The notes under the pieces: generated by a model
Databases searched by the model: none
Seen by the model: the letters and a program-made list of their open reading frames with translations, nothing else
Told to the model about the DNA's origin: nothing
Translations under genes and position numbers: made by a program
Source: a virus
IMG/VR virus record: IMGVR_UViG_3300005265_000121
Coordinates: 1-30,058 of that record
Strand: one strand, 5' to 3'
DNA: 30,058 nucleotides
Shown here: positions 3-17,612 of the stretch, one piece after another
Position numbering within the stretch: the first letter of the stretch is position 1
How the letters are laid out: every line of letters begins with the position of its first letter

Positions 3-2801
3 CGGGCTGCTGATGCAAGTGGCACGATGAAATTGTCAGAATCGACAGATCAAATAATTGAACTGCGCAAGGCCGGTTATGACGCAGCAGAAGCTCTTGA
101 CATTATGCGCCAGAAATTTGAAATGCTTGATCAGGCAGCTGGCGACACGGCTAAACGTGGGATTGAAGATCTTAAAGGTAGCTTCCGTGAAATGATCAGG
201 CTTGTAGGCGAATCTGCCGGTCCTGCATTGAAAAAAACGGTTGATGTTATAAATGAATATATGCATCAACAGGCTGAAATTTCAAGGCTTACAGGTAAAA
301 GCCAAATCGGTGAGTCTGTTATAAGGGCAATGACACCCGCACCACTTGAAATTATCAACGATGCGAAGGTAATCGTTAAGTGGATATTTGAATCAGACGA
401 AGAAAAGGCCCGTCGTGAATACAAAAAATTCATAGAAGACAACATTAAGCATATCACTGCTCCATTGGATACTCCTATCGAGTACAAAATAGGAAAAGAA
501 ACTATAAAATATAAGCCGCAAAAAATAGATACTCATGAAATTGTCCGCATGGGCAACCGAACCGCAGCTGTTTTTGGCGAAGAATTTACAAAAGGCATCG
601 ACAAGGCCATCGTCGATGCGAATAAAATATTCGCCACCAAGCTTACCATGGCCAGGATGGTTAACAAAAGTCTTGGCGAAATTATGCATAAAGTCGAAAT
701 CTTGCAAAGTCAAGGGGTTATAAAACCCGAGCAAGTGCAAACGTTAAAAGATGCCTTGATGTTCGAACAAAAACGCAAAGCCATGGCTCCGTTGCTAAAA
801 GATTACCAGGATTTTTATTCCAAAGTCGGGATAATGACAAAAGAACAATATGAAGCCGAAGCCGAGCTTATCCGTGAAAACAAAAAATTACGTATTGGAC
901 GGCTCGGATTGGGCAAACCTGAGGCGATCTCGCTTTATAACGAGGAAATGTACCAGCTCGATCAAAAGCGGCTTAAATCGGTAATGAGGGCCTTTGAACG
1001 CTTTTATCAGATGACTGGTAAAATGGATGCTGAATATTTCAAGCAAAGGCTGATCAGAATCGAACACGAACGCCAGCAAAATGAAAAATTTTTCAGATCT
1101 CAAGGCGTCAAAAAGCCAAAACAAAAAGCCGATGAAATTGCAGCCGAACAAAAATGGCAGCTTGACCAGCAGGGCCTAAAAAAGACTGTGGAAGCCAATG
1201 CCATGGTCTATGATCGACTCGGCATAATGACCGATGAATATTACAACAACGAATTGAATAAAATCAAGCATTACAATGATCAGATGGCTGGCTATGTCGA
1301 TGAGGATATGCGTAAAAAATTGCGCAAACAAGCTGAATTTGCTCTAGAATTAAAAAAATTCTTTGCCGATCAGGTAAAAATTTCCCAAAGTGAATTGGCC
1401 ATTATGCAAAAAACATTTTCGCAAACTGGTATAATGGCGGAGCCGTTGCTAAGAGCTGAACGTGCCAAAATCGAACAGGAACAAATGCGCCTTGAACGGT
1501 TTGAATCCGGCAAGCGCAGTGCTCCGCTTGTCAAAAAGCAGGCTGAACTTGAGCTGTTCAAAAAGCAAAATAAATATCGTGTAAAACTTGATGAACAATA
1601 TTTTAAAGAATCCAAGACAATGACGGATTTTCTTTATAATTATCGTGTTGAAAAAATCCTTCAAGAAATCAATATCATAGAAACTCGTAATAAATTAATC
1701 CTGCAGGATATGGCAAAAAAAGGAGTGGCTCAGAATGAGCTGGCAAAACGTGCGGCTCAAATGGAGCAGGAAGTCGAAATCACAAAAACGCAAAGATTCA
1801 AAAAATTAAACGATGATAAAATTTTAAATACAGTTAAAGCCTGGCAGCAAATGTATTCGGTAACAAAAAAATACAGCAAAGCTCAAACAGATTACATGCT
1901 TGATCAGGTGGAATATAGACAAAAAGAAATTGAACGGCTTACAGGAGATACTGAAGGAGCTGCTGAATTTGCAAGAAGGGAAAGGACGAAAATTCAAGTC
2001 GATGTCCTGCTGCAAACCGAAGATGCTGCCAACGGAATCGAAGCACTGCGTAAAAAAACCACCCTTGAAACGACGACCATGGCTGAAAAAACGGCTGAGA
2101 ATATGCAGAAAATAATCACAGCCACCCAGGAAAGCCTGTCCGATGGGTTCTTTGATTTCATGCAGGCGGATTTTGAAACCATATGGGACTTGTTCGATGA
2201 AACCGGGAATCGTTTCGTAAAAATGATCGATCGAATGGTTGCGGATTACCTGTCGTCAAAACTCGCCCAGGGACTTTTCGGCAGCATGACGCAAGGCGGT
2301 ACCGGTGGTGGGTGGGCGGAAGGGCTTATCAAAACGATAATAGGCGGATTCAGTAGCATGGGAACAAGTACAGGGACAGGTGTGTCAAGTGGAAGTGTCG
2401 CCCATTATGATCCTTCCCGTGCGATGGCCGCAACCGGAGCTGTGATTACACAACCGACCATATTTAAAAAATTAGCATCTGGCGGTGTCATTACGGATCG
2501 TATGGATTTTTACGATAATGATACGCTCAAACTCGCTTCCGGTGGCGTAATCACATCGAATATGGTATCTCCGAGCGTCCAAATCGGAGAAGCCGGCCCT
2601 GAAGGTGTTTTGCCGTTGACTCGAATGCCGGATGGTAAGCTCGGTGTAGCCAGTACACAAAACAAAAATACCAATACGGTCAAAAATGATTTTTTCATTA
2701 CAGTTGAAGCCCCGGATGGAAAACTTCCGCCACAATCCATGAACCAACTGCAAACTCGTCTTGGCATGTCCGTGCAGCGAGCAATGAGGAGAAACGCATG
2801 A
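3..2801 (+). CDS. Tail tape measure protein, 5' end cut by window
   Basis: This is the C-terminal part of a phage tail length tape measure protein, which sets tail length and is ejected with the DNA. The frame is open to the window edge, so the Met at 27 is probably internal. Numbering from that Met, about 900 residues remain. Most of it is charged, Lys/Glu-rich helix expected to form coiled coil. Between about residues 265 and 540 a motif of an aromatic residue, Gly-Ile/Lys-Met-Thr/Asp and then Tyr/Phe recurs about every 65 residues. After residue 740 the sequence turns Gly/Ser-rich and ends with the motif GEAGPEGVLPLTR, which is typical of lambda-type tape measure C-termini. The stop overlaps the next start (ATGA), as expected in a tail operon. 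The length, composition and C-terminal motif make the call secure. Confidence 0.93.
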   Translation, partial: RAADASGTMKLSESTDQIIELRKAGYDAAEALDIMRQKFEMLDQAAGDTAKRGIEDLKGSFREMIRLVGESAGPALKKTVDVINEYMHQQAEISRLTGKSQIGESVIRAMTPAPLEIINDAKVIVKWIFESDEEKARREYKKFIEDNIKHITAPLDTPIEYKIGKETIKYKPQKIDTHEIVRMGNRTAAVFGEEFTKGIDKAIVDANKIFATKLTMARMVNKSLGEIMHKVEILQSQGVIKPEQVQTLKDALMFEQKRKAMAPLLKDYQDFYSKVGIMTKEQYEAEAELIRENKKLRIGRLGLGKPEAISLYNEEMYQLDQKRLKSVMRAFERFYQMTGKMDAEYFKQRLIRIEHERQQNEKFFRSQGVKKPKQKADEIAAEQKWQLDQQGLKKTVEANAMVYDRLGIMTDEYYNNELNKIKHYNDQMAGYVDEDMRKKLRKQAEFALELKKFFADQVKISQSELAIMQKTFSQTGIMAEPLLRAERAKIEQEQMRLERFESGKRSAPLVKKQAELELFKKQNKYRVKLDEQYFKESKTMTDFLYNYRVEKILQEINIIETRNKLILQDMAKKGVAQNELAKRAAQMEQEVEITKTQRFKKLNDDKILNTVKAWQQMYSVTKKYSKAQTDYMLDQVEYRQKEIERLTGDTEGAAEFARRERTKIQVDVLLQTEDAANGIEALRKKTTLETTTMAEKTAENMQKIITATQESLSDGFFDFMQADFETIWDLFDETGNRFVKMIDRMVADYLSSKLAQGLFGSMTQGGTGGGWAEGLIKTIIGGFSSMGTSTGTGVSSGSVAHYDPSRAMAATGAVITQPTIFKKLASGGVITDRMDFYDNDTLKLASGGVITSNMVSPSVQIGEAGPEGVLPLTRMPDGKLGVASTQNKNTNTVKNDFFITVEAPDGKLPPQSMNQLQTRLGMSVQRAMRRNA

Positions 2802-3442
2802 GCTTTTTAGAAACTCCAAGGTTTCCGGACAACATCGCTTATGGCTCTGCCGGGGGACCTGCCTATTCGACGCGTATTGTTGAATATGGTGCAGGCTATG
2901 AGCAACGGGATGTGATGTGGAGCTACGCCAGGCATGAGTACGATGTGGCTTATGGCATCAGAAAAATAGAAGATCTATACAGCCTTGTCGATTTTTTTCA
3001 TGCAGTGAAGGGTCGCGGGTATGGATTTCGGTATAAAGATTTTGCGGATTATAAAAGCTGCGCTGTAAATCAAACGTTATCTGATACCGACCAGACGATT
3101 GGTACTGGAGACGGCGCTGAAACAGACTTTCAGCTTATTAAAAAATACATAAAAGGTTCGATGACAACCACACGATACATCACCAAGCCGGTGTCCGGCA
3201 CGGTCGTTATCTCTATAGATGACGTAAGCCAACCAAGTGGTTGGACAGTTGACACGACAACCGGAATCGTAACCTTTGCATCAGCACCGGCATCCAGTGC
3301 TGTCGTAAAAGCTGGCTATGAATTCGACGTGCCAGTAAGGTTTAACGTCGACAAAATTTCAGTCGTATACTCAGATTATGAAGCTGGCGATCTTTCGGTG
3401 CCGGTCGTTGAATTAAAATATCATTCAGTCCCACAGCCATAG
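2798..3442 (+). CDS. DUF2460 / TIGR02217-type distal tail protein
   Basis: The protein has 214 residues, close to the usual length of the DUF2460 (TIGR02217) family. This family follows the tape measure gene in many proteobacterial siphophages and gene transfer agents, where it acts as a distal tail (Dit-like) component. The N-terminus (MSFLETPRFPDNIAYGSAGG) and the stretch RGRG-to-hubs near residues 65-80 (KGRGYGFRYKDFADYKS) are hallmark regions. The start overlaps the tape measure stop, and GAGGAG lies just upstream as ribosome binding site. The structural role comes from family knowledge. The recognition is from sequence memory, not a search. Confidence 0.9.
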   Translation: MSFLETPRFPDNIAYGSAGGPAYSTRIVEYGAGYEQRDVMWSYARHEYDVAYGIRKIEDLYSLVDFFHAVKGRGYGFRYKDFADYKSCAVNQTLSDTDQTIGTGDGAETDFQLIKKYIKGSMTTTRYITKPVSGTVVISIDDVSQPSGWTVDTTTGIVTFASAPASSAVVKAGYEFDVPVRFNVDKISVVYSDYEAGDLSVPVVELKYHSVPQP

Positions 3443-3451
3443 AGGTTTTAA

Positions 3452-4294
3452 ATGCCACGCAGTATTTCGACAAATCTTTTGACTCATTATGCTGGCGAAG
3501 TACGCACAATCGCCCGTTGCTGGAAAATTACCAGGACAGATAGCGTCGTGCTCGGGTTCACAGACCATGACCAGGATATTGTCTATGATGGGACGACATA
3601 TGAAGCCCTGTCGTCAGGTTCCATGACAAATATTGAAGCCAACGACAACCTGGCGGCAGACAATCTGAATTTTGAAATGGTGTTAAATTCGGAGAAAATC
3701 ACTAAAACCGATGTTATTGCAGGCAGATACGAAAAAGCAAAAATGTGGATTTTCGAGGTTAATTACGAATCTTTAGCCGACGGCCACGTAACGCTTGCCT
3801 ATGGTTATATCGGTGAGATCACGCTGCATGACACCTATATTAACGCCGAATTCAGAAGCCTCAGCCAGCTTTTGCAAAACAATATCGGCAGGGTTTATTT
3901 GCCGACTTGCGACGCGAAGTTTTGTGACAGCAGGTGCGGGCTTACCGAATCTTCGTATACCACACCAGCTACCGTAACGGCTATTACCGACAGGTCTGAA
4001 TTTTCAATAGCCGCGACCGCGGGCGGCAGCACGGATTATATAAATGGCCGTGTTGAATTCACATCCGGCGACAACGACGGCCTGTCAATGGAAATAAAGC
4101 AATGGACGTCAACGATTAAACTTGTCCTTCCGATGCCGTTTAATATAACTGTCGGCGATACATTCAACATGATAGAAGGATGCAAGAAAACAAAGGACGA
4201 ATGCAAGAATCGATTCAACAATCTGGTCAACTTCAGGGGATTCCCGGACGTGCCGGGTGTGGACAAGATGCTCCAGTATCCGTCGCTGCATTGA
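3452..4294 (+). CDS. DUF2163 / phage_BR0599 tail hub protein
   Basis: This 280-residue protein matches the two-part DUF2163 plus phage_BR0599 architecture (TIGR02218). The N-terminal part has the typical FTDHDQDI stretch near residue 37. The C-terminal half carries Cys153, Cys158, Cys162, Cys244 and Cys251 and the family signature RFNNLVNFRGFP. Proteins of this type form the tail hub in gene transfer agents, and lambda gpL, a related hub protein, binds a 4Fe-4S cluster through four cysteines. The cysteines here suggest the same, but that is inference. The gene sits 9 bases after the DUF2460 gene and its TGA overlaps the TTG proposed for the next gene. Confidence 0.9.
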   Translation: MPRSISTNLLTHYAGEVRTIARCWKITRTDSVVLGFTDHDQDIVYDGTTYEALSSGSMTNIEANDNLAADNLNFEMVLNSEKITKTDVIAGRYEKAKMWIFEVNYESLADGHVTLAYGYIGEITLHDTYINAEFRSLSQLLQNNIGRVYLPTCDAKFCDSRCGLTESSYTTPATVTAITDRSEFSIAATAGGSTDYINGRVEFTSGDNDGLSMEIKQWTSTIKLVLPMPFNITVGDTFNMIEGCKKTKDECKNRFNNLVNFRGFPDVPGVDKMLQYPSLH

Positions 4295-4752
4295 TAAATA
4301 CAACTCAGCGCAAGATTATCGATGAAGCTAGAAGATGGATCGGAGTTCCATTCCATCACCAGGGACGCTCAATGGCTGGCTGCGACTGCGCTGGCGTTGT
4401 TGTGGCTTGCGCCAAAAAACTCGACATGAAATTCGTCGATTTAAAAGGCTATGGCAGGCTGCCGAACAGCCATAAACTCGAACATCTTTTCAAATCCCAA
4501 ATGATTCAAATTGCGCTTAACAAAATCCAGCCTGCTGACGCGGTATTAATTGCCTGGCGCAATGACCCGCACCATGTCGGCATCATATCAAATTTACCTG
4601 ATGGACGGCTTGGTATCATCCACAGCTACCAGAAGGTCGGGCGCGTGGTTGAGCACGGGCTTGACCAGAAATGGCGCGATCGTATCGTACTGGCGTTTCG
4701 TTTTCCTCAAACAATTCCGATTGAACATTTCAAAACCAAGGACATCGCGTAA
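4291..4752 (+). CDS. NlpC/P60 tail-tip peptidase
   Basis: This is an NlpC/P60 cysteine peptidase that probably cuts peptidoglycan stem peptides during DNA entry. Numbered from the TTG at 4291, the motif GCDCAGVVV places the catalytic Cys at residue 33, PHHVGII gives the His at 94/95, and a third polar residue is likely His111. An ATG start at 4180 is possible, but it would add 37 residues that overlap the DUF2163 gene by 115 bases and do not look like this family. Known members begin just before the EARRWIG segment. I therefore chose TTG at 4291, which makes a TTGA junction with the upstream stop. No clear Shine-Dalgarno precedes it, so translational coupling is likely. The stop shares a base with the next ATG (TAATG). 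Confidence 0.88.
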   Translation: MINTTQRKIIDEARRWIGVPFHHQGRSMAGCDCAGVVVACAKKLDMKFVDLKGYGRLPNSHKLEHLFKSQMIQIALNKIQPADAVLIAWRNDPHHVGIISNLPDGRLGIIHSYQKVGRVVEHGLDQKWRDRIVLAFRFPQTIPIEHFKTKDIA

Positions 4753-7700
4753 TGGCAACGCTCGGCACTGCATCGGCCGGTGCGGTTGCCGGTGCTGCGA
4801 TTACATACAATTCCCCCACCTATTCGATCGGCACGGCTGTCGGCTGGGCCATCGGCTCCTATGTCGGGTCTTTAATATTTAAAGACAATGAAAAAAGCAA
4901 AGAAGGCCCGCGCCTTGATGATTTGAGCGTGCAAATGTCCACCTATGGCCTTCCGATTCCGAAAATATTCGGTTCAGGCAGGGTGGCCGGCAATGTTATC
5001 TGGTCGACAAATATTAAAGAAACGAAGCATAAAAAAGAATACGGCAACGATGGCAAGGGTGGATATTCAGGCAGCGCCTACACTACTTATACGTATTCCG
5101 TATCATTGGCGGTGGCTGTTTGTGAAGGCGAGATAGCAGGACTTGGCCGTATATGGATGGATGACATCATATACCTCGATCTTCGCAAAAATGTTTGGGA
5201 TGATGAAGATCCGAATAACACGTACATAAACCTGGCAATTACAGATGAACGCATCGAAAGTATTACTGTATATACAGGTTCGGAAACGCAAACTGCAGAT
5301 CCGGTCATTGAATCTCATCTCGGAACAGGTGAAGTCCCGGCCTATAGGGGCACGGCATATATCGTATTTGAAGATCTGCAGCTCGGGCAATTCGGGAACC
5401 GAATTCCAAATATAAATTTTGAAATATTCGTGCTCGGAACAACCAGTGAAGAAAATTTTTTTATGCCGCTGGCAGCAAAATCAATGAATTCACTCACAGT
5501 AGATATTTACGATAATCTCATAACTTATAATCGCGAACAAAATTCAGATCCGGGTACATTTACAGTATATGACAGGTTAAGCAATCGCAAAATAAAAGAA
5601 TTTGGAGTCCCGACATGTCCATTCGCATGGGTTGATCAATATGGGAAAACAAAAAATGTGTCGATATATTTTGGCAGTATGATTGGAGAAAACCAAACAA
5701 CAAATGAGTACGATCTTATAGGTATGGAAGTTCTCGAAGATCGATACAACCCACGCCGAGACAACCACCTTGTTACGATTTGGCTTGGAGCAGCACTTGA
5801 TATCAACCCAAATTATCCTGGGCGTTGTTTCATTATTCATCATGTTGGAATATCTCAGGAAGTAGATTATGGGATAAGAAGTGCATACTTCGGACAATAC
5901 TCCGATGGCTATGCAACATTGGTTGATGAAGAAATAATCTTTGCGAAATCATATTATGAAGATCGTCTAATACACATTCGCGAAAATGGCAGTTGGATAA
6001 AAACAGTTCAATTGCAAGGTCCGTCTGGCGTAAGCTGCACATCGCATTTTTCAAATTTGGCCCTTGATTTTGTACGTCCTGTCATCCATCCAGAAACAAA
6101 AAATATGTGGCTTACAAATACGCCATGTGTGCAATATGTAAGATATATTGAGTATGAAAATGTTTCATCAAAAGTACTCGATTATAAAGAATCAGATCAT
6201 ACAGCAGGAAAAGCTCCGGATTATGGAATAGCATATAGTCGCTATCGCCAAAAATGGGTTGGCTGGTACTCTGACAACGGCGGGCGAATAGGGTTGCTCG
6301 ATAAAAATGAATTTACGTTAAACAAAATAACCTATACAAAATATGATGAAACGTACTGGCCGGCGCTTGATACGGTAGTAAAATATCTGTGCAATGAATC
6401 TGGTATTGCAAATGAATATATAGATGCGACAGATCTTGAAAATATTAAGTTTGCAGGATATATCAAAGCCAATACAATGGCTGCGAAACAAGCGATAGAG
6501 CCGCTTCAAATGGCATACTTGTTTGATATTGTAGAGGTTGATAAAAAAATAAAATTTGTTTTAAGAGATAATGCGTCATCAAAAACAATATCATCTAATG
6601 ATTTGATGGCATCAAAGGAAGACAAAAACGTAGATGCCCAAAAAATTACGGTTGCCAATAAATCAGAGCTTCCATCTTGCGTAAAAATAAGGTTCATGCA
6701 TCCCGGCAGGAACTATGAAATCGGAACGCAATCGTATTCAATGGAGCACTTTGATTATACGAATGAATTTGTAATGGAAATTCCAATCGTAATGTATAAT
6801 TCAGAAGCAATAAAAATGGCTCAAAATATATTGGTGTCAGCCCATGGCAATAATAAGCGAAACATTTTTTCATTAACGAATAAACACATAGATATAATTC
6901 CGACAGATGTTGTAACTATCGACAGTGTTGATTTCAGAATAACCGAATCAAATATCTCGGCAAATTTAATAGAATTCAACAGCGCATCTCAACTGCAATT
7001 TTCATCAACAGCCACGACTTCTGAAAATAATTTTTCGCCTGAACTGCCAAAAACAACTGAACAGACATTTGGGTTTCTGCTCGATATTCCAATTTTAAAT
7101 CAAGCAAATAATACGGCAGGCATGTATGTGGTCGCAACCGGAATAAGTGATGCCTGGACCGGGGCTGTGCTTTTTAAATCATCTGATCTTGAAACTACAT
7201 GGGAGCAGTATCAAACGATCGATGAGCCGTGCGTAATCGGATATGTAGAAGAAAAGATGTCTGACCACACAACGGCTGTCTTCGATTCTGAAAACGAACT
7301 TACAGTATGGCTTAACTACGGCAGCCTGTCTTCTTCAACAAAACAAAACGTGCTAAATGGGGCAAATGCGGCTTTAATTGGCGAGCATGGTCGCTGGGAG
7401 GTAATTCAGTTTGTCAACGCAACCTTAAATGCCAATGGCTCTTATACGATAGATACACTGCTGCGTGGAAGACTCGGCACTGAAATGAATACCGGCAATC
7501 ATAAAAACGGTGATCATTTTATACTCCTGGATGAAAATTCAATCGCCAATATACAATCCCAGGCAAACGAGATCGGAATCGAATACGCCTATAAATTTGT
7601 AAGTTTTGGCGGTTTTATCGATTCGTTCGCAACGACCTATTTTACTAATACGAATATAAGAATGAAGCCACTGGCTGTCTGCCATGAACGCGCAATTCCA

Positions 7701-8498
7701 GACGGTAATGGAACGATAGATTTTTCATGGCATAAAAGAGATCGAATCTATTATGAAAATGAATGGCAGGATTACGGTCCGTCGAATTTAAGCATAGACT
7801 ACCCACAGCAATTTAAAGTCGACGTGTATTCCGCTGACAAAACTGAAGTGCTTAAAACTTATGAACAGTCAAGCAATTCATTTTCATATACGGCAACAAT
7901 GATCCGTGCTGATTTTAACGGGTCGTTAATATATAATATGAAATTCGACATATCGGAAGCAAACAGCTATTTTACGAATAGCTATATCAAAACACTTGAT
8001 AACGTAATCAATTGGATGCCAGCGAGTCAATCGACATGTTCTGTATATAGCTCAGATGTTACGAGTGTCAACAATACATTCGGAAGATTAAGCGGTAATT
8101 CGCTTAACAATTTGTCTTATTTTTCATCATCAGAAATATACAAGGCGTTCGATAACAACACTGGCACGTATTATTATGGCTTAACAAGAAGATATACTGG
8201 AAAATATTATAATGGAATTCAAATAGACTTTGACGATTTAAAATGTATCAGAAAAATATCATTAAAAATAAATTATTCAATATATGGTGTAATTGTCCAG
8301 GCAAGCTGCGATAATGATTTTTCAGGAAATCAGCTAACCCTATATACAATGGGAGAAGACTGGAATTCTTCTGGAACTAAAACAATAACTTTTGACAATT
8401 ATTATGGCTTTTTAAACTATCGCATGATATTCTTAACATCACCGTATGAATACCACTATTATCTTTACGAAGTGTGGATGAATGAATGCAATGATTAG
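4752..8498 (+). CDS. Tail-tip / host-recognition protein with C-terminal discoidin-like domain (copy 1)
   Basis: A 1248-residue tail-tip protein of the gpJ / GTA 'megatron' class, located where that gene belongs, right after NlpC/P60. The first 60 residues are Gly/Ala-rich and hydrophobic, with GTAVGWAIGSYVGSL. Then comes the conserved EGPRLDDLSVQMSTYGLPIP region. Residues about 235-570 look like a divergent beta-rich insertion. The segment from about 576 (AIEPLQMAYLFDI) matches the Phage-tail_3 region, and LLRGRLGTE near 905 is a family hallmark. The last 150 residues resemble an F5/8 type C (discoidin) sugar-binding domain, with AFDNNTGTYYYG near 1132 and IQIDF followed by IRKISL. It has a close paralogue directly downstream. 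Binding to a cell-surface glycan is inferred. Confidence 0.88.
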   Translation: MATLGTASAGAVAGAAITYNSPTYSIGTAVGWAIGSYVGSLIFKDNEKSKEGPRLDDLSVQMSTYGLPIPKIFGSGRVAGNVIWSTNIKETKHKKEYGNDGKGGYSGSAYTTYTYSVSLAVAVCEGEIAGLGRIWMDDIIYLDLRKNVWDDEDPNNTYINLAITDERIESITVYTGSETQTADPVIESHLGTGEVPAYRGTAYIVFEDLQLGQFGNRIPNINFEIFVLGTTSEENFFMPLAAKSMNSLTVDIYDNLITYNREQNSDPGTFTVYDRLSNRKIKEFGVPTCPFAWVDQYGKTKNVSIYFGSMIGENQTTNEYDLIGMEVLEDRYNPRRDNHLVTIWLGAALDINPNYPGRCFIIHHVGISQEVDYGIRSAYFGQYSDGYATLVDEEIIFAKSYYEDRLIHIRENGSWIKTVQLQGPSGVSCTSHFSNLALDFVRPVIHPETKNMWLTNTPCVQYVRYIEYENVSSKVLDYKESDHTAGKAPDYGIAYSRYRQKWVGWYSDNGGRIGLLDKNEFTLNKITYTKYDETYWPALDTVVKYLCNESGIANEYIDATDLENIKFAGYIKANTMAAKQAIEPLQMAYLFDIVEVDKKIKFVLRDNASSKTISSNDLMASKEDKNVDAQKITVANKSELPSCVKIRFMHPGRNYEIGTQSYSMEHFDYTNEFVMEIPIVMYNSEAIKMAQNILVSAHGNNKRNIFSLTNKHIDIIPTDVVTIDSVDFRITESNISANLIEFNSASQLQFSSTATTSENNFSPELPKTTEQTFGFLLDIPILNQANNTAGMYVVATGISDAWTGAVLFKSSDLETTWEQYQTIDEPCVIGYVEEKMSDHTTAVFDSENELTVWLNYGSLSSSTKQNVLNGANAALIGEHGRWEVIQFVNATLNANGSYTIDTLLRGRLGTEMNTGNHKNGDHFILLDENSIANIQSQANEIGIEYAYKFVSFGGFIDSFATTYFTNTNIRMKPLAVCHERAIPDGNGTIDFSWHKRDRIYYENEWQDYGPSNLSIDYPQQFKVDVYSADKTEVLKTYEQSSNSFSYTATMIRADFNGSLIYNMKFDISEANSYFTNSYIKTLDNVINWMPASQSTCSVYSSDVTSVNNTFGRLSGNSLNNLSYFSSSEIYKAFDNNTGTYYYGLTRRYTGKYYNGIQIDFDDLKCIRKISLKINYSIYGVIVQASCDNDFSGNQLTLYTMGEDWNSSGTKTITFDNYYGFLNYRMIFLTSPYEYHYYLYEVWMNECND

Positions 8499-9980: not shown

Positions 9981-12800
9981 GTGATGTCGGCCAGAAACGC
10001 GATAGAGCCACTGCAAAAAATGTTTTTGTTCGATATTGCCGAGGTCGACAAAGTTTTAAAGTTTGTGAAAAGAGATTCGATCAGCGCAGTAACCATCCCG
10101 GCAACACAATTAATGGCAAAAACATTCGGCAATGATGAAAAATTAGATATTGTTGAATCAACATTTATAAATGAAGTTGAGTTTCCGGTAGAAATTACAG
10201 TTAAATTCTTACACTTCGGAAGAAATTATACCCAAAGCGCACAGAATTATAAAATATATTTTTCTGATACAAAAAATAAGATAGATGTCAACTTGCCAAT
10301 CGTAATGGACGCCACCACCGCATTGCAAACGGCTCAAAAATTGTTGTTATCAAGAAGAAGCGCAAACGTAAGGTATGTACTTTCAAGCTATGCAAAAAAT
10401 ATTTTCCTGGCACCTGCCGATCCAATTATCGTTGATTCTAAACGAAGCCGCATTACCCAAATGAGCATCTCCGGCGGTCTGTTGAAAATACAATCTGAAT
10501 CAGAGCAAGACGCGTCTTCGTACACATCATCGCTAACCACATCTTCCGGGGACTTTGAACTTGAACTGCCATCCACCGTAAGCCCCACCAGCCTCGTTTT
10601 TCTTGACACGCCGGTTTTTTATGAGATCGACTCAAATGCAGGATTCTATGTCGCCGCATATGGGCTTGCGTCGGCCTGGCCGGGGTGTGTGGTTTATTAT
10701 TCATCAGATGGCGGCGGGACCTGGAACCAAATCCAAACGATTACATCCGATGCGTCTGCCGGTGTTACGACGACAAAATTGCAGGCAGGCGGAACCGCTG
10801 TAATCGACGGAGAAAACACGCTTACCGTCAGAATGTATTCAGGTACGCTTTCAAGCATCACCCAGGCGGCGATGTTAAATGGTTCAAATGGCGCGGCTGT
10901 CGGGGCTCATGGACGCTGGGAAATAATTCAGTTTCAAAATGCGACATTAAATGCAGACGGGACATATACGATCGACACGCTTTTACGTGGCAGAAAAGGC
11001 ACCGCCTGGGCAATCGAAACGCATCAAACCGGAGATCTGTTTGTTCTGCTTGACAGCAATATTGCAAGAATTCCGCTTGGAAGTTCAGAAATAAACCAGG
11101 AGGAAACTTATCGAGCGGTTTCATTCGGGCAATCAATCCACGATGTATCCGACATAAGTTTTACCAATACGGCAATTGGATTGAAATGCTATTCTCCTTG
11201 CCACCTAAATGGACTGCGCAACTCATCAAATGATATAAACATCACGTGGACCAGGCGCGATCGTGTCTATGGAGAATCCGAATGGGCGGATTTTTCTGTT
11301 GCTACAAAAAATGCAGAAGACTCCGAATTGTATGACATTGAATTTTTTGATCAGGATACCATCGTAAGGACTGTTTCTGATTTAACAGATCCGCAATACA
11401 CGTATACCGCAGCCATGCAAATTGCCGACTTCGGAGCAGTCGTGGAATACGTCGTAATTAAGGTCTATCAGAAATCTACTGTCGTCGGTCGTGGATATCC
11501 TGCCACAGCCACGGTAGGCGCAACGAATACGAAGCGCACAATTACTCCCGGAGACTCAAAGCTGCTGCTCACCTCTGATAGTGTGTCGACAACAACCCGG
11601 CAATCAGTAAGTCCGAATGATTCAAAAATAAGTTTGGTGGCATATAACTGCGAGCTTGGAAAATTAAGCCTACAAAATTCCAAGATAACATTGACTTCAG
11701 ACAGTGTGGCATCCTGGCTTACCGATTGGCAGTACAGGAAAAAATTTACAATCGACAGTTCAAAAATAGATTCAAGCTTGTCTGATTTTCCAGTAGCACT
11801 GCTGCTAAGTACATCGGCTGGTACAAATGATGAAGATCTCACGGCAATCTTTACAGAAATTGCTGACTCTGACAGAAAGAAAATCGCGGTTACGACTTCC
11901 GATGGGACCACGCAATGTTATGTCGAAATCGAAAAATGGGATTCAACGAATAAAAAAGCTGCGTTGCATGTAAAGGTCCCGACGATATCATCCAGTGCGA
12001 ACACAGAACTCTATCTATATTATGACTCAGGACATGCTGATAACACGACATATGTCGGCAATACTGGAGATAGCGTCGTCCAGAATGTATGGGACAATAA
12101 CTTTAAAGCCGTTTATCATATGGCTCAAGATCCGAGTAACGGTTCTGGAGCAATCAAAGATTCTACATCTAATGGCAATAATGGAACATCAGCTGGCACT
12201 ATGACATCAACAGATCTTGTTGATGGTCAATCTGGAAAGGCAATTGAATTTGATGGTATAGACGATTACATAAATTGCGGTAGTGATTCTAGTATTGATA
12301 ATATCACAACATTTTCAATAGAAGCTGTTTTCAATATGAATGGATGGGGTGAAAGTTCCTGGGGTAGAATAATACAAAAAGCAAATGTAAATAATGACGG
12401 ATTTAGTATCTTTGTTGACGGAGACTCAGGACAAGAATTATTATCCATTCTTGCACCATGGACAACAGCAAATGGTAAATGGTCTACACCTGCCAGTAGT
12501 TTTTCATTGTCTACTTGGTATCATGTCGCAATTTGTTATAATAGCTCATCTACGGCAAATGATGCAATTATTTATAAAAATGGCACATCCCTTTCTATCA
12601 CAGAAAATAGTACTCCAGCTGGTTCATTTGCAAATGACTCGGCAAATGATATGTGGATCGGTGCTCGTAATAATTCTGGATCAGATCGTGAATTTGATGG
12701 TAAAATATGTGAAATTCGTATTTCAGCTATCATCCGATCTTCATCATGGATAAAAGCAACATATTATACATTATTCGACAATTTAGGAGAGTGGGGATAA
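9981..12800 (+). CDS. Tail-tip protein copy 2, C-terminal part with DUF2341 and LamG domains
   Basis: This is the rest of the second tail-tip protein. It opens at a GTG inside the conserved Phage-tail_3 region (MSARNAIEPLQKMFLFDIAEVDK), and no ribosome binding site precedes the GTG. The homologous frame reads back without a stop to at least 9921, so this start is probably an artefact of a frameshift near 9937. Residues about 1-510 follow copy 1, including LLRGRKGTAW. A linker with repeated TSDSV segments follows. Then comes a DUF2341 domain from about 577 (WQYRKKFTIDSSKI), and from about 715 a LamG/concanavalin-like domain (GKAIEFDGIDDYINCG, WYHVAICYN). The C-terminus thus differs completely from the discoidin-like end of copy 1, which points to a different surface ligand (inference). 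Confidence 0.82.
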   Translation: MMSARNAIEPLQKMFLFDIAEVDKVLKFVKRDSISAVTIPATQLMAKTFGNDEKLDIVESTFINEVEFPVEITVKFLHFGRNYTQSAQNYKIYFSDTKNKIDVNLPIVMDATTALQTAQKLLLSRRSANVRYVLSSYAKNIFLAPADPIIVDSKRSRITQMSISGGLLKIQSESEQDASSYTSSLTTSSGDFELELPSTVSPTSLVFLDTPVFYEIDSNAGFYVAAYGLASAWPGCVVYYSSDGGGTWNQIQTITSDASAGVTTTKLQAGGTAVIDGENTLTVRMYSGTLSSITQAAMLNGSNGAAVGAHGRWEIIQFQNATLNADGTYTIDTLLRGRKGTAWAIETHQTGDLFVLLDSNIARIPLGSSEINQEETYRAVSFGQSIHDVSDISFTNTAIGLKCYSPCHLNGLRNSSNDINITWTRRDRVYGESEWADFSVATKNAEDSELYDIEFFDQDTIVRTVSDLTDPQYTYTAAMQIADFGAVVEYVVIKVYQKSTVVGRGYPATATVGATNTKRTITPGDSKLLLTSDSVSTTTRQSVSPNDSKISLVAYNCELGKLSLQNSKITLTSDSVASWLTDWQYRKKFTIDSSKIDSSLSDFPVALLLSTSAGTNDEDLTAIFTEIADSDRKKIAVTTSDGTTQCYVEIEKWDSTNKKAALHVKVPTISSSANTELYLYYDSGHADNTTYVGNTGDSVVQNVWDNNFKAVYHMAQDPSNGSGAIKDSTSNGNNGTSAGTMTSTDLVDGQSGKAIEFDGIDDYINCGSDSSIDNITTFSIEAVFNMNGWGESSWGRIIQKANVNNDGFSIFVDGDSGQELLSILAPWTTANGKWSTPASSFSLSTWYHVAICYNSSSTANDAIIYKNGTSLSITENSTPAGSFANDSANDMWIGARNNSGSDREFDGKICEIRISAIIRSSSWIKATYYTLFDNLGEWG

Positions 12801-16302: not shown

Positions 16303-16469
16303 TGAAAAAATTATATCTCGTTATCGTTCTCGGAGACGTTGAGCCAATTCTGGCCGGGCCGTTTGAAACCGAACAAATGCGTGATGATCATGCTGCGTTT
16401 CATGGAACCGGAAGGAGAGTAAAAAAATGGCGAAATTGCATGAACTTTTGGCAGTCGAAGCGGATTTGA
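16302..16469 (+). CDS. Small hypothetical protein, 55 aa
   Basis: A 55-residue frame starting at the ATG that shares a base with the upstream TAA. It begins MKKLYLVIVLGDVEPILAGP, and a FETEQMRDDHAAFH segment follows. This looks like the short strand-helix proteins ('GPF...' then 'RD..A') common in phage accessory regions. It overlaps the start of the following gene by 43 bases. That gene's ribosome binding site lies inside this frame. Coding status rests on the coupled start and the residue pattern. Confidence 0.55.
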   Translation: MKKLYLVIVLGDVEPILAGPFETEQMRDDHAAFHGTGRRVKKWRNCMNFWQSKRI

Positions 16470-17170
16470 AGTCAACTTACAACGCAATCTTACTGGAAAC
16501 CGCAAAGGTTTTCAAACACAAGGGCGAGCTGTTTACCGGATTTGTCAGAACCTTGAAATGGTTCGATGACAATGCGCCTGAAGCCCCTGAAGAACGCAAG
16601 GCGCTTTCCACGACAGTCCCACGTCGGTTGGATTACCAGAACGAACACGTCGTGCGTTATCTGGATGCGGTATTTCAGAAAGAGCTGGCCAATCAACAGG
16701 CAAAAGCCGACATCATCGTGGATGGTAAAACCCTTGCCGAAAATGTACCGGCCACATATCTGCTGGGACTTGAAACCAAGCTCAAACAACTCAAAAGCGT
16801 TTACCTGGAAATCCCGACACTGCCGCCGGGCATTTCATGGAAAATTGACGACACCCAAGGCAAGGATGTCTTCATCACACAGTTTCCGGAGGAAACCTAC
16901 AAAACCGAAAAGAAGTTCAAGGTTCAAGTGCTTTATGAAGCAACCAAAGAACACCCGGCCCAGGTCGAAAAAATCCCGGAAACGGAAAACGTCGGCAAAT
17001 ACACCCGTTACACCTGGAGCGGGGCAATCACAGCTGCCGAAAAATCCAAGCTCATCGGCAGGATCGACAAGCTGCTGCGGGCCGTGAAAAAAGCCAGGCA
17101 GCGTGCCAACAATGTGGACGTCAAAAAAGACGTCATCGGCAAAAAACTCATTGACTACATCAATGGGTAA
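16427..17170 (+). CDS. Uncharacterised conserved protein, DUF7873-like
   Basis: A 247-residue soluble protein that I recognise from memory as a widespread uncharacterised family (name DUF7873), seen in phages and in actinobacterial and other genomes. Hallmarks are the opening MAKLHELLAVEADLKSTYN, the block AKADIIVDGKTLAENVPATY near residue 95, LPTLPP-like text near 125, KEHPAQVEK near 180 and a final YING. No catalytic motif is visible, and no function is established that I know of. The start is fixed by AAGGAGAG, 8 bases before ATG. The gene is visibly richer in G and C than its neighbours, which suggests a different origin. The stop abuts the permuted tRNA locus. Confidence 0.8.
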   Translation: MAKLHELLAVEADLKSTYNAILLETAKVFKHKGELFTGFVRTLKWFDDNAPEAPEERKALSTTVPRRLDYQNEHVVRYLDAVFQKELANQQAKADIIVDGKTLAENVPATYLLGLETKLKQLKSVYLEIPTLPPGISWKIDDTQGKDVFITQFPEETYKTEKKFKVQVLYEATKEHPAQVEKIPETENVGKYTRYTWSGAITAAEKSKLIGRIDKLLRAVKKARQRANNVDVKKDVIGKKLIDYING

Positions 17171-17180
17171 TCGTATAAAA
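17170..17180 (+). repeat. Direct repeat, left copy (11 bp)
   Basis: ATCGTATAAAA occurs here, starting at the last base of the upstream stop codon, and again at 17447-17457 just inside the sequence that follows the tRNA 5' half. The copies are 277 bp apart and bracket the 3' half and most of the 5' half of the permuted tRNA. Confidence 0.75.
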
Positions 17181-17285
17181 GTTTTGGGTAAAATTAAGCT
17201 TTATCATTGATGTCACATCAAAGCCGCCCGACCCGATGAAGCGCATGCGTGGAGGGAAAAACTGCGCGGCATACTCGTAAGCTTT

Positions 17286-17314
17286 TTGACCCAATAGCTT
17301 TAGGTCGTTAAAAG
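17286..17314 (+). promoter_or_regulatory. Weak candidate promoter for the permuted tRNA transcript
   Basis: TTGACC (17286-17291, 5/6 consensus) lies 17 bases before TAAAAG (17309-17314, weak). Initiation would fall near 17321, just upstream of the helix that embraces the tRNA halves. Only the -35 box is convincing. Confidence 0.3.
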
Positions 17315-17331
17315 TCAGAAAATCTGTGACA

Positions 17332-17444
17332 ATTTCATCCTTTGGTCGTCGGTTCGATTCCGATCCCGAACGCCAATCAAAGCTCATAATGAAACATTAT
17401 GATTTTTGATTTACGTTCGGGTAGCTCAGCGGTAGAGCAAAAGG
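17332..17444 (+). tRNA. Circularly permuted tRNA gene, 3' half before 5' half (possible tRNA-Glu UUC)
   Basis: The 3' half (17332-17375) comes first. It consists of anticodon loop ATTTCAT, stem CCTTT (17339-17343), variable GGTC, T arm GTCGG-TTCGATT-CCGAT, acceptor strand CCCGAAC (17365-17371), discriminator G and CCA. The 5' half (17415-17444) follows 39 bases later, with acceptor GTTCGGG (17415-17421), TA, D arm GCTC-AGCGGTA-GAGC, A26 and anticodon stem AAAGG (17440-17444). The acceptor pairs 7/7 and the anticodon stem 5/5. Joined 17444 to 17332 they give exactly 30 + 44 = 74 nt with U33 and A37 in place and anticodon UUC (17334-17336). Discriminator G suits tRNA-Glu, though the D arm is not typical for Glu. 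The true joint, and so the anticodon, is inferred. A pair of decayed tandem tRNAs is the main alternative. Confidence 0.72.
17375..17411 (+). repeat. Hairpin linking CCA end to 5' end of the permuted tRNA
   Basis: AATCAAA (17375-17381) pairs with TTTGATT (17405-17411), and CATAATG (17385-17391) with CATTATG (17395-17401) across an AAA loop. Between them are a G-U pair, one mismatch and a T-A pair. It stacks almost directly on the acceptor stem (G72-C414 also pair), so the CCA end and 5' end would have to be freed by processing enzymes such as RNase P and 3' nucleases. Confidence 0.8.
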
Positions 17445-17446
17445 GC

Positions 17447-17457
17447 ATCGTATAAAA
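17447..17457 (+). repeat. Direct repeat, right copy (11 bp)
   Basis: This is the second copy of ATCGTATAAAA, beginning two bases past the anticodon-stem strand of the tRNA 5' half (see 17170-17180). Read as a circle through the two copies, the locus becomes an ordinary tRNA interrupted by about 160 nt after its anticodon stem. Confidence 0.75.
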
Positions 17458-17494
17458 ATTGTCGCTGGAAATTTTTGATTTGTGACAAACGACA

Positions 17495-17567
17495 CTTTGC
17501 ATAGCTCAATTGGTAGAGCAATGGTATGATAAACCATAGTGTGCAGGTTCAATTCCTGCTGCAAGCA
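17495..17567 (+). tRNA. tRNA-Ile (GAU)
   Basis: This is a complete 73-nt cloverleaf in normal order. It has acceptor CTTTGCA/TGCAAGC, D arm GCTC-AATTGGTA-GAGC, anticodon arm ATGGT-ATGATAA-ACCAT with anticodon GAT at 17528-17530, variable AGTGT, T arm GCAGG-TTCAATT-CCTGC and discriminator A. U33 and A37 are present. The outermost acceptor pair is C-C and the next is U-G, so the stem top is weak. CCA is not encoded. It lies 50 bases after the tRNA 5' half and just before a terminator. Confidence 0.85.
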
Positions 17568-17576
17568 AATGAAACG

Positions 17577-17612
17577 GGGTGGCGGCAGGCAAGTCGCCAC
17601 CCTAATTTTTTT
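17577..17612 (+). terminator. Rho-independent terminator after the tRNA locus
   Basis: GGGTGGCG (17577-17584) pairs perfectly with CGCCACCC (17595-17602) across a 10-nt loop, and seven T's follow at 17606-17612. It ends the RNA transcript 10 bases after tRNA-Ile. Confidence 0.93.

Follow-up and report, generated by a model that had tools for sequence, protein, structure and literature searches.

The DUF7873 gene and the adjoining RNA

In the present study, the whole 30,058-base virus record IMGVR_UViG_3300005265_000121 (positions 1 to 30,058; hereafter the window) was scanned, and a gene encoding a 247-aa protein was observed at 16427-17170. The product matches the Pfam family DUF7873 (PF25283, E=1e-79; 268 bits versus a cut-off of 27). 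The AlphaFold model of this protein is confident (pLDDT 90.9, pTM 0.66), and a fold search of PDB and BFVD returned nothing at E<=0.001. No relative was found in a sequence search of PDB, and a literature search of partial coverage revealed no paper mentioning DUF7873. An RNA composed of several parts is encoded directly downstream of this gene, and the gene and all of these parts lie on the plus strand.

First, a 5' domain of approximately 130 nt (17178-17301) separates the DUF7873 gene from the tRNA-like part. In the minimum free energy fold of 17171-17494 (z=-4.43), this domain forms a hairpin closed by AAAGTTTTGGGT (17178-17189) with 17289-17301, and similar closing stems were recognised by eye 3' of DUF7873 in relatives. 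Motifs such as AGCTTTATC, TTAGTGTTAG or CAAACTCAAACTCA recur in the 5' domain of the window and in the corresponding stretch after DUF7873 in relatives. Second, a basal stem is formed by a 5' strand at 17304-17335 (GTCGTT, AAGTCAGAAA, GTGACAATTT) and a 3' strand at 17456-17493 (AAATTGTCGC ... AACGAC), with a helix score of 21.5 for 17326-17335 paired with 17456-17465. These long paired flanks extend beyond 17332-17444, the region covered by the original prediction, and continue both halves of the element described there. Third, the two halves of a tRNA body lie between these strands. The 3' half comprises the 3' strand of an anticodon-type stem, CCTTT (17339-17343), the T arm GTCGG-TTCGATT-CCGAT (17348-17364), and the acceptor 3' strand CCCGAAC followed by an encoded GCCA (17365-17375), and the variable loop GGTC is read directly between CCTTT and the T arm. 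A linker (17376-17414) prolongs the acceptor stem as a hairpin, generating an inverted repeat (17365-17391/17395-17421). The 5' half comprises the acceptor 5' strand GTTCGGG, TA, and the D arm GCTCAGCGGTAGAGC (17415-17438), and a single A separates the D arm from AAAGG (17440-17444), the 5' strand of the anticodon-type stem. All pairs are formed in this copy (acceptor 7/7, T stem 5/5, D stem 4/4, anticodon-type stem 5/5). On folding, 17303-17493 formed a single extended hairpin tipped by the tRNA-like head (-64.2 kcal/mol, z=-5.63). The claim that a 3' half with encoded CCA precedes a 5' half, with a perfect 7-bp acceptor stem and a perfect 5-bp anticodon-type stem, was confirmed at the positions originally given, and the order is permuted because the RNA forms a hairpin with the acceptor end at its tip.

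Fourth, a tRNA-like element in canonical order, called tRNA-Ile GAT, is located at 17495-17567, without CCA and with the first acceptor position unpaired, and is followed by a terminator-like hairpin and a T run (17576-17603). This element is probably on the same transcript as the permuted RNA. Neither ARAGORN nor the Rfam tRNA model reported the permuted element, each detecting the downstream tRNA-Ile alone, and the RNA is largely unannotated because the permuted order is invisible to tRNA finders. An ordinary intron-containing tRNA was considered and rejected, as such a gene would have its halves in the opposite order and both programs detected only the downstream gene. The loop of the terminal hairpin resembles RGGNWA (GGCAAG, GGCTAG, GGTTATA, GGATATG) by eye in the window and in the loci L052 and L057-L061.

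Conservation of the permuted element across DUF7873 loci

DUF7873 is present in 73 phage records representing nine host-name groups. Fourteen of these records were fetched, followed by 102 viral and 29 bacterial loci, all containing DUF7873, and these were searched using a finder demanding the T arm, acceptor pairing, anticodon-type pairing and the D arm at a score of at least 19 of 21. The permuted element was detected no more than 900 nt downstream of DUF7873 in 104 of the 115 viral loci, including those of phages of Rhizobium, Vibrio, Klebsiella, Gordonia, Arthrobacter and Rhodococcus. Upstream of DUF7873, the same finder gave one match in 136. No match was observed in reverse-strand segments (0/142), in shuffled segments (0/142) or in 1.285 Mb of unrelated viral contigs with both strands counted, demonstrating that the permuted arrangement does not reflect chance. 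In addition, a covariance model (R1) built from 55 copies recovered the element, at 58-93 bits, in most viral loci missed by the strict finder. In another contig (L002), the DUF7873 protein is 55% identical, and the permuted element occupies the same place with unrelated stem sequences. Among the bacterial loci, some Bacteroidota DUF7873 genes have no adjoining RNA, and R1 matches were observed elsewhere in those MAGs; several of these distant matches were confirmed as permuted elements, and the weaker ones may be ordinary tRNA pairs. That this RNA accompanies a single uncharacterised protein gene in phages with widely differing bacterial hosts suggests an unrecognised RNA-protein system. DUF7873 is the likely protein partner of the RNA, with RNA binding suggested solely by the gene neighbourhood.

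The original prediction had named compensatory changes in relatives as a way to check the element, and the result is in its favour. In 55 distinct sequences, 93.7% of cells form standard pairs, all 21 stem pairs show changes on both sides, and the covariation is 0.86, compared with 0.22 for shuffled and 0.09-0.20 for slid alignments. The helices supported in this manner are those of the anticodon-type stem (helix 1), the T arm (helix 2), and the acceptor and D arm (helices 3 and 4). As the copies had been selected by pairing, two further tests were designed to be free of selection bias. First, when the anticodon-type stem was left out of the selection, at least 4 of its 5 pairs were formed in 68% of 106 matches versus 16% with partners swapped. 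Second, the outer helix, which lies outside the selected region, scored 17.0 versus 12.7 with swapped partners. At the level of sequence comparison, these results show that compensatory changes preserve the permuted architecture and that the element goes with DUF7873. The same observations bear on the idea that the halves are debris, either left over from tandem tRNA genes or belonging to a phage attachment site that contains the 3' half of a tRNA. Such 3' halves are common attachment sites, and a tRNA does lie immediately downstream in the window, but the compensatory changes over more than 100 loci, the fixed position after DUF7873 and the conservation of the flanking stems make the probability of this explanation negligible. 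Direct repeats flanking the halves were also considered as traces of a duplicated intron, and this idea was dropped, as no such pattern was found in relatives.

Several properties of the acceptor end were determined in 104 distinct copies. NCCA follows the acceptor in 71 of these copies, and there is free variation at the discriminator base and at pair 1-72. Among the 47 copies that have both G1 and NCCA, the last linker bases are A at -2 in 38 and U at -1 in 34. A preference for U at -1 and pairing to RCC are established properties of bacterial RNase P. Judged from these bases, the linker end together with NCCA is compatible with an RNase P site.

The downstream element was also frequently observed. 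Of 108 distinct loci, 44 have a canonical-order tRNA that begins no more than 150 nt past the 5' half, mostly at 43-56 nt. The anticodons of these tRNAs fall into 23 types, among them a stop anticodon and readings of two or four bases, and CCA is lacking in 36 of the 44; examples with such features include the window (17495-17567), L213, L215 and L002 (3034-3107). The downstream tRNA may be a second, non-decoding tRNA-like domain. A tandem pair of permuted elements after DUF7873 was noted in Klebsiella jumbo phages and several actinophages (L057, L058, L059, L060, L061). In the Klebsiella phage vB_KpM_FBKp24, the annotated 'tRNA-Sup-TTA' (L058:3518-3597; MW394391.1 46041-46120) overlaps a permuted element, in the 3' half of the latter, and has probably been misannotated.

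Splicing and decoding

The original prediction had read the halves as a 74-nt tRNA with U33 and A37. These features are readable in the window, but the length of 74 nt results from joining 17444 to 17332, an arbitrary choice on which U33, A37 and the anticodon UUC all depend. Using 47 copies with a perfect anticodon-type stem, eight ways to make a 7-nt loop from the flanking bases were compared. U33 and purine 37 were observed together in 23-26% of the copies, whichever of the eight joints was used, whereas 53 ordinary phage tRNAs read identically showed U33 in 52/53 and purine 37 in 53/53. The proposed UUC (Glu) anticodon of the window is therefore one among many readings, and the bases beside the anticodon-type stem show no anticodon-loop conservation in the 104 distinct copies. 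A spliced tRNA-Glu as the product is not supported either, since no joint yields a standard 7-nt loop across the 47 relatives.

These results decide largely against a true permuted tRNA gene, in which the transcript would be cut and ligated, whether by splicing, by a ligase of the phage or by self-splicing of the RNA, such that the 5' half is joined to the 3' half and the product decodes. The permuted tRNA genes of red and green algae and some archaea likewise have the 3' half upstream of the 5' half and a short linker between the acceptor ends, and the phage element keeps every feature of a tRNA body, the encoded NCCA, and covarying acceptor and anticodon-type stems. However, the algal and archaeal genes give standard anticodon loops after bulge-helix-bulge splicing, and the phage element gives none at any joint. 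On inspection, the folds show one asymmetric internal loop at the joint, followed by a long helix, with no bulge-helix-bulge. The free variation of the 1-72 pair and the discriminator base is also unlike that of a tRNA of fixed identity. Taken with the low frequency of U33 and purine 37, and with the lack of a group I or II intron match in Rfam, we regard a decoding product as improbable.

The self-splicing route that had been suggested for this joining found no support in Rfam, where neither a group I nor a group II intron was detected here. A related idea, a natural permuted self-splicing intron yielding a circular tRNA-containing RNA, appears very improbable. The order of the parts corresponds to that of an engineered permuted intron-exon construct, and structured RNA flanks both sides, but permissive Rfam scans gave no group I or II match (permuted cores may escape these models), the flanks are highly variable in length and sequence, and the splice-site bases are unconserved.

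Thus, the permuted order originally described is real and conserved, and both stems are under selection, but the reading as a spliced tRNA-Glu is disfavoured. Instead, the halves are probably the tRNA-mimicking head of a structured non-coding RNA without an anticodon, encoded directly 3' of DUF7873, for which no splicing into a decoding tRNA is needed.

Relationship to known RNAs and a proposed mechanism

The closest known kind of RNA is the bacterial Y RNA YrlA. Ro60/Rsr is anchored on the stem of this RNA; PNPase binds to its tRNA-like domain, which tRNA enzymes also modify (PMC8394870). The YrlA family (RF02553) and the phage element share the order of T arm, acceptor, linker, acceptor and D arm on a long stem with internal loops, and both occur in phages. 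The YrlA consensus has a shorter, capped acceptor stem without CCA, whereas the phage element has a 7-bp acceptor, an encoded NCCA and a longer linker; the phage element is also tied to DUF7873 rather than Ro60, and has an additional domain at the 5' end, often accompanied by another tRNA-like element. In a permissive Rfam scan, a sub-threshold YrlA match was obtained at 17323-17471 (37.7 bits over the full model, 1-114; gathering score 69). Some sub-threshold YrlA match was also given by 7 of 14 control genomes and, as adjacent ordinary tRNAs can generate weak matches of this type, the match in the window proves little alone. Elsewhere, sub-threshold matches were observed 3' of DUF7873 in L002 (42.9 bits) and in several reference-phage loci (29-38 bits).

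The most direct explanation from this likeness would be a divergent but ordinary Y RNA that binds Ro60 supplied by the host or the phage, as YrlA does, with DUF7873 as a mere neighbour. The same permuted module on a long stem and the YrlA matches in the window and in relatives are in line with this explanation, as is the distance of approximately 1-7 kb between Ro60 and DUF7873 in five of the six records that bear both. However, the RF02553 gathering score was reached by no DUF7873-linked copy tested, and Ro60 is encoded in only 6 of 74 DUF7873 records and absent from the other 68, whereas DUF7873 is found with the RNA in approximately 90%. In the window, a 30-kb fragment, no TROVE or vWA_Ro60 domain was detected. 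Moreover, the Ro60-bearing phages have separate YrlA-like RNAs near Ro60, with better scores of up to 60.7 bits. An ordinary Y RNA is therefore judged unlikely; the architecture and genome proximity recall Y RNAs, yet the NCCA, the longer linker, the link to DUF7873 and the general lack of Ro60 indicate that the phage RNA is similar to Y RNAs but distinct.

Ro60-encoding jumbo phages have already been described (PMC7824862, PMC7765460). In a 145-kb viral contig, an operon-like order of YrlA RNA, two ORFs, Ro60, DUF7873 and permuted RNA was observed (L201:984-4532), where Ro60 (1950-3554) and the beginning of DUF7873 (3544-4305) overlap and the permuted element comes next. In two other loci (L205:5649-6535 and L206:2785-3588), three to four YrlA-like RNAs are arrayed beside a phage Ro60, some with NCCA after the acceptor stem.

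The encoded NCCA also suggests comparison with two-piece tmRNAs. In this alternative, RNase P would cut out the linker, the CCA would be charged, and the stem domains would bring the head to the ribosome. The two-piece tmRNAs of alphaproteobacteria, betaproteobacteria and cyanobacteria have permuted genes of the same order (a 3' part with CCA, a spacer and a 5' part), with a long helix replacing the anticodon arm of the tRNA-like domain and the spacer probably removed through RNase P. Partial beta_tmRNA matches in Vibrio, Klebsiella and Rhizobium loci, and the presence of NCCA and UAU before base 1, are consistent with such a molecule. In contrast to tmRNA, the phage element retains a full D arm and does not follow the G3-U70 rule, as the alanine-type G3-U70 pair is present in just 4 of 104 copies and pair 3-70 is U-A in the window. 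In addition, the best tmRNA model match in the window is 9.3 bits versus an Rfam threshold of 84. We consequently give little credence to a tmRNA-like role. A separate tmRNA match above the threshold (89 bits) was noted in Gordonia phage Phendrix (L059:572-1100), within a tRNA array and unannotated in the record.

Large structured RNAs of phages were also considered. GOLLD and ROOL are likewise structured, phage-borne and often located beside tRNAs, and no Rfam match to either was obtained in the window. T-large is another large structured phage non-coding RNA found near tRNAs.

Herein, we propose a mechanism for the tRNA-mimic RNA. First, transcription would start from or near DUF7873 and proceed to the terminator at 17576-17603. 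Judged from the sequence, the T arm, D arm and acceptor stem form a tRNA elbow, and the strands of the would-be anticodon loop enter the long paired stem. Second, the head, with NCCA and, in relatives, U-A-U just before base 1, could be recognised by tRNA enzymes, and RNase P would probably trim the linker, leaving a nicked, CCA-ended tRNA-like head. Third, DUF7873 would bind the stem or the 5' domain. By analogy with the bacterial Y RNA-Ro60 particle, the protein might be held on the stem, with the head free to contact the tRNA- or RNA-processing machinery. Candidate roles in the phage are RNA quality control, tethering of a nuclease, and service as a decoy for defences that cut tRNA. Against this reading, most copies encode an NCCA for which a pure stem-and-head scaffold would have no need.

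We tentatively suggest, as a possibility that falls short of a favoured conclusion, that the new-fold protein DUF7873 and its dedicated tRNA-mimic RNA constitute an undescribed class of phage and bacterial ribonucleoproteins, in which one permuted transcript would be trimmed through RNase P, carry a CCA end, and act independently of Ro60 on tRNA or ribosome biology during infection. No earlier description of a DUF7873-linked tRNA-mimic RNA was found in the literature covered; as this coverage is partial, the novelty is stated as 'no description found' and is unproven. Located next to a single protein family in phages infecting Proteobacteria, Actinobacteria and other bacteria, and in Bacteroidota genomes, a structured RNA that combines a complete tRNA elbow and CCA with the lack of an anticodon would extend the Y RNA idea past Ro60 and might bear on the ways in which phages deal with damaged tRNA and with defences directed at tRNA. 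Cultured phages are available in which this RNA-protein system could be tested at once.

Elsewhere in the window, two large tail genes (4752-8498 and 9981-12800) each contain Phage-tail_3 and Rcc01698_C, an apparent duplication within one phage.
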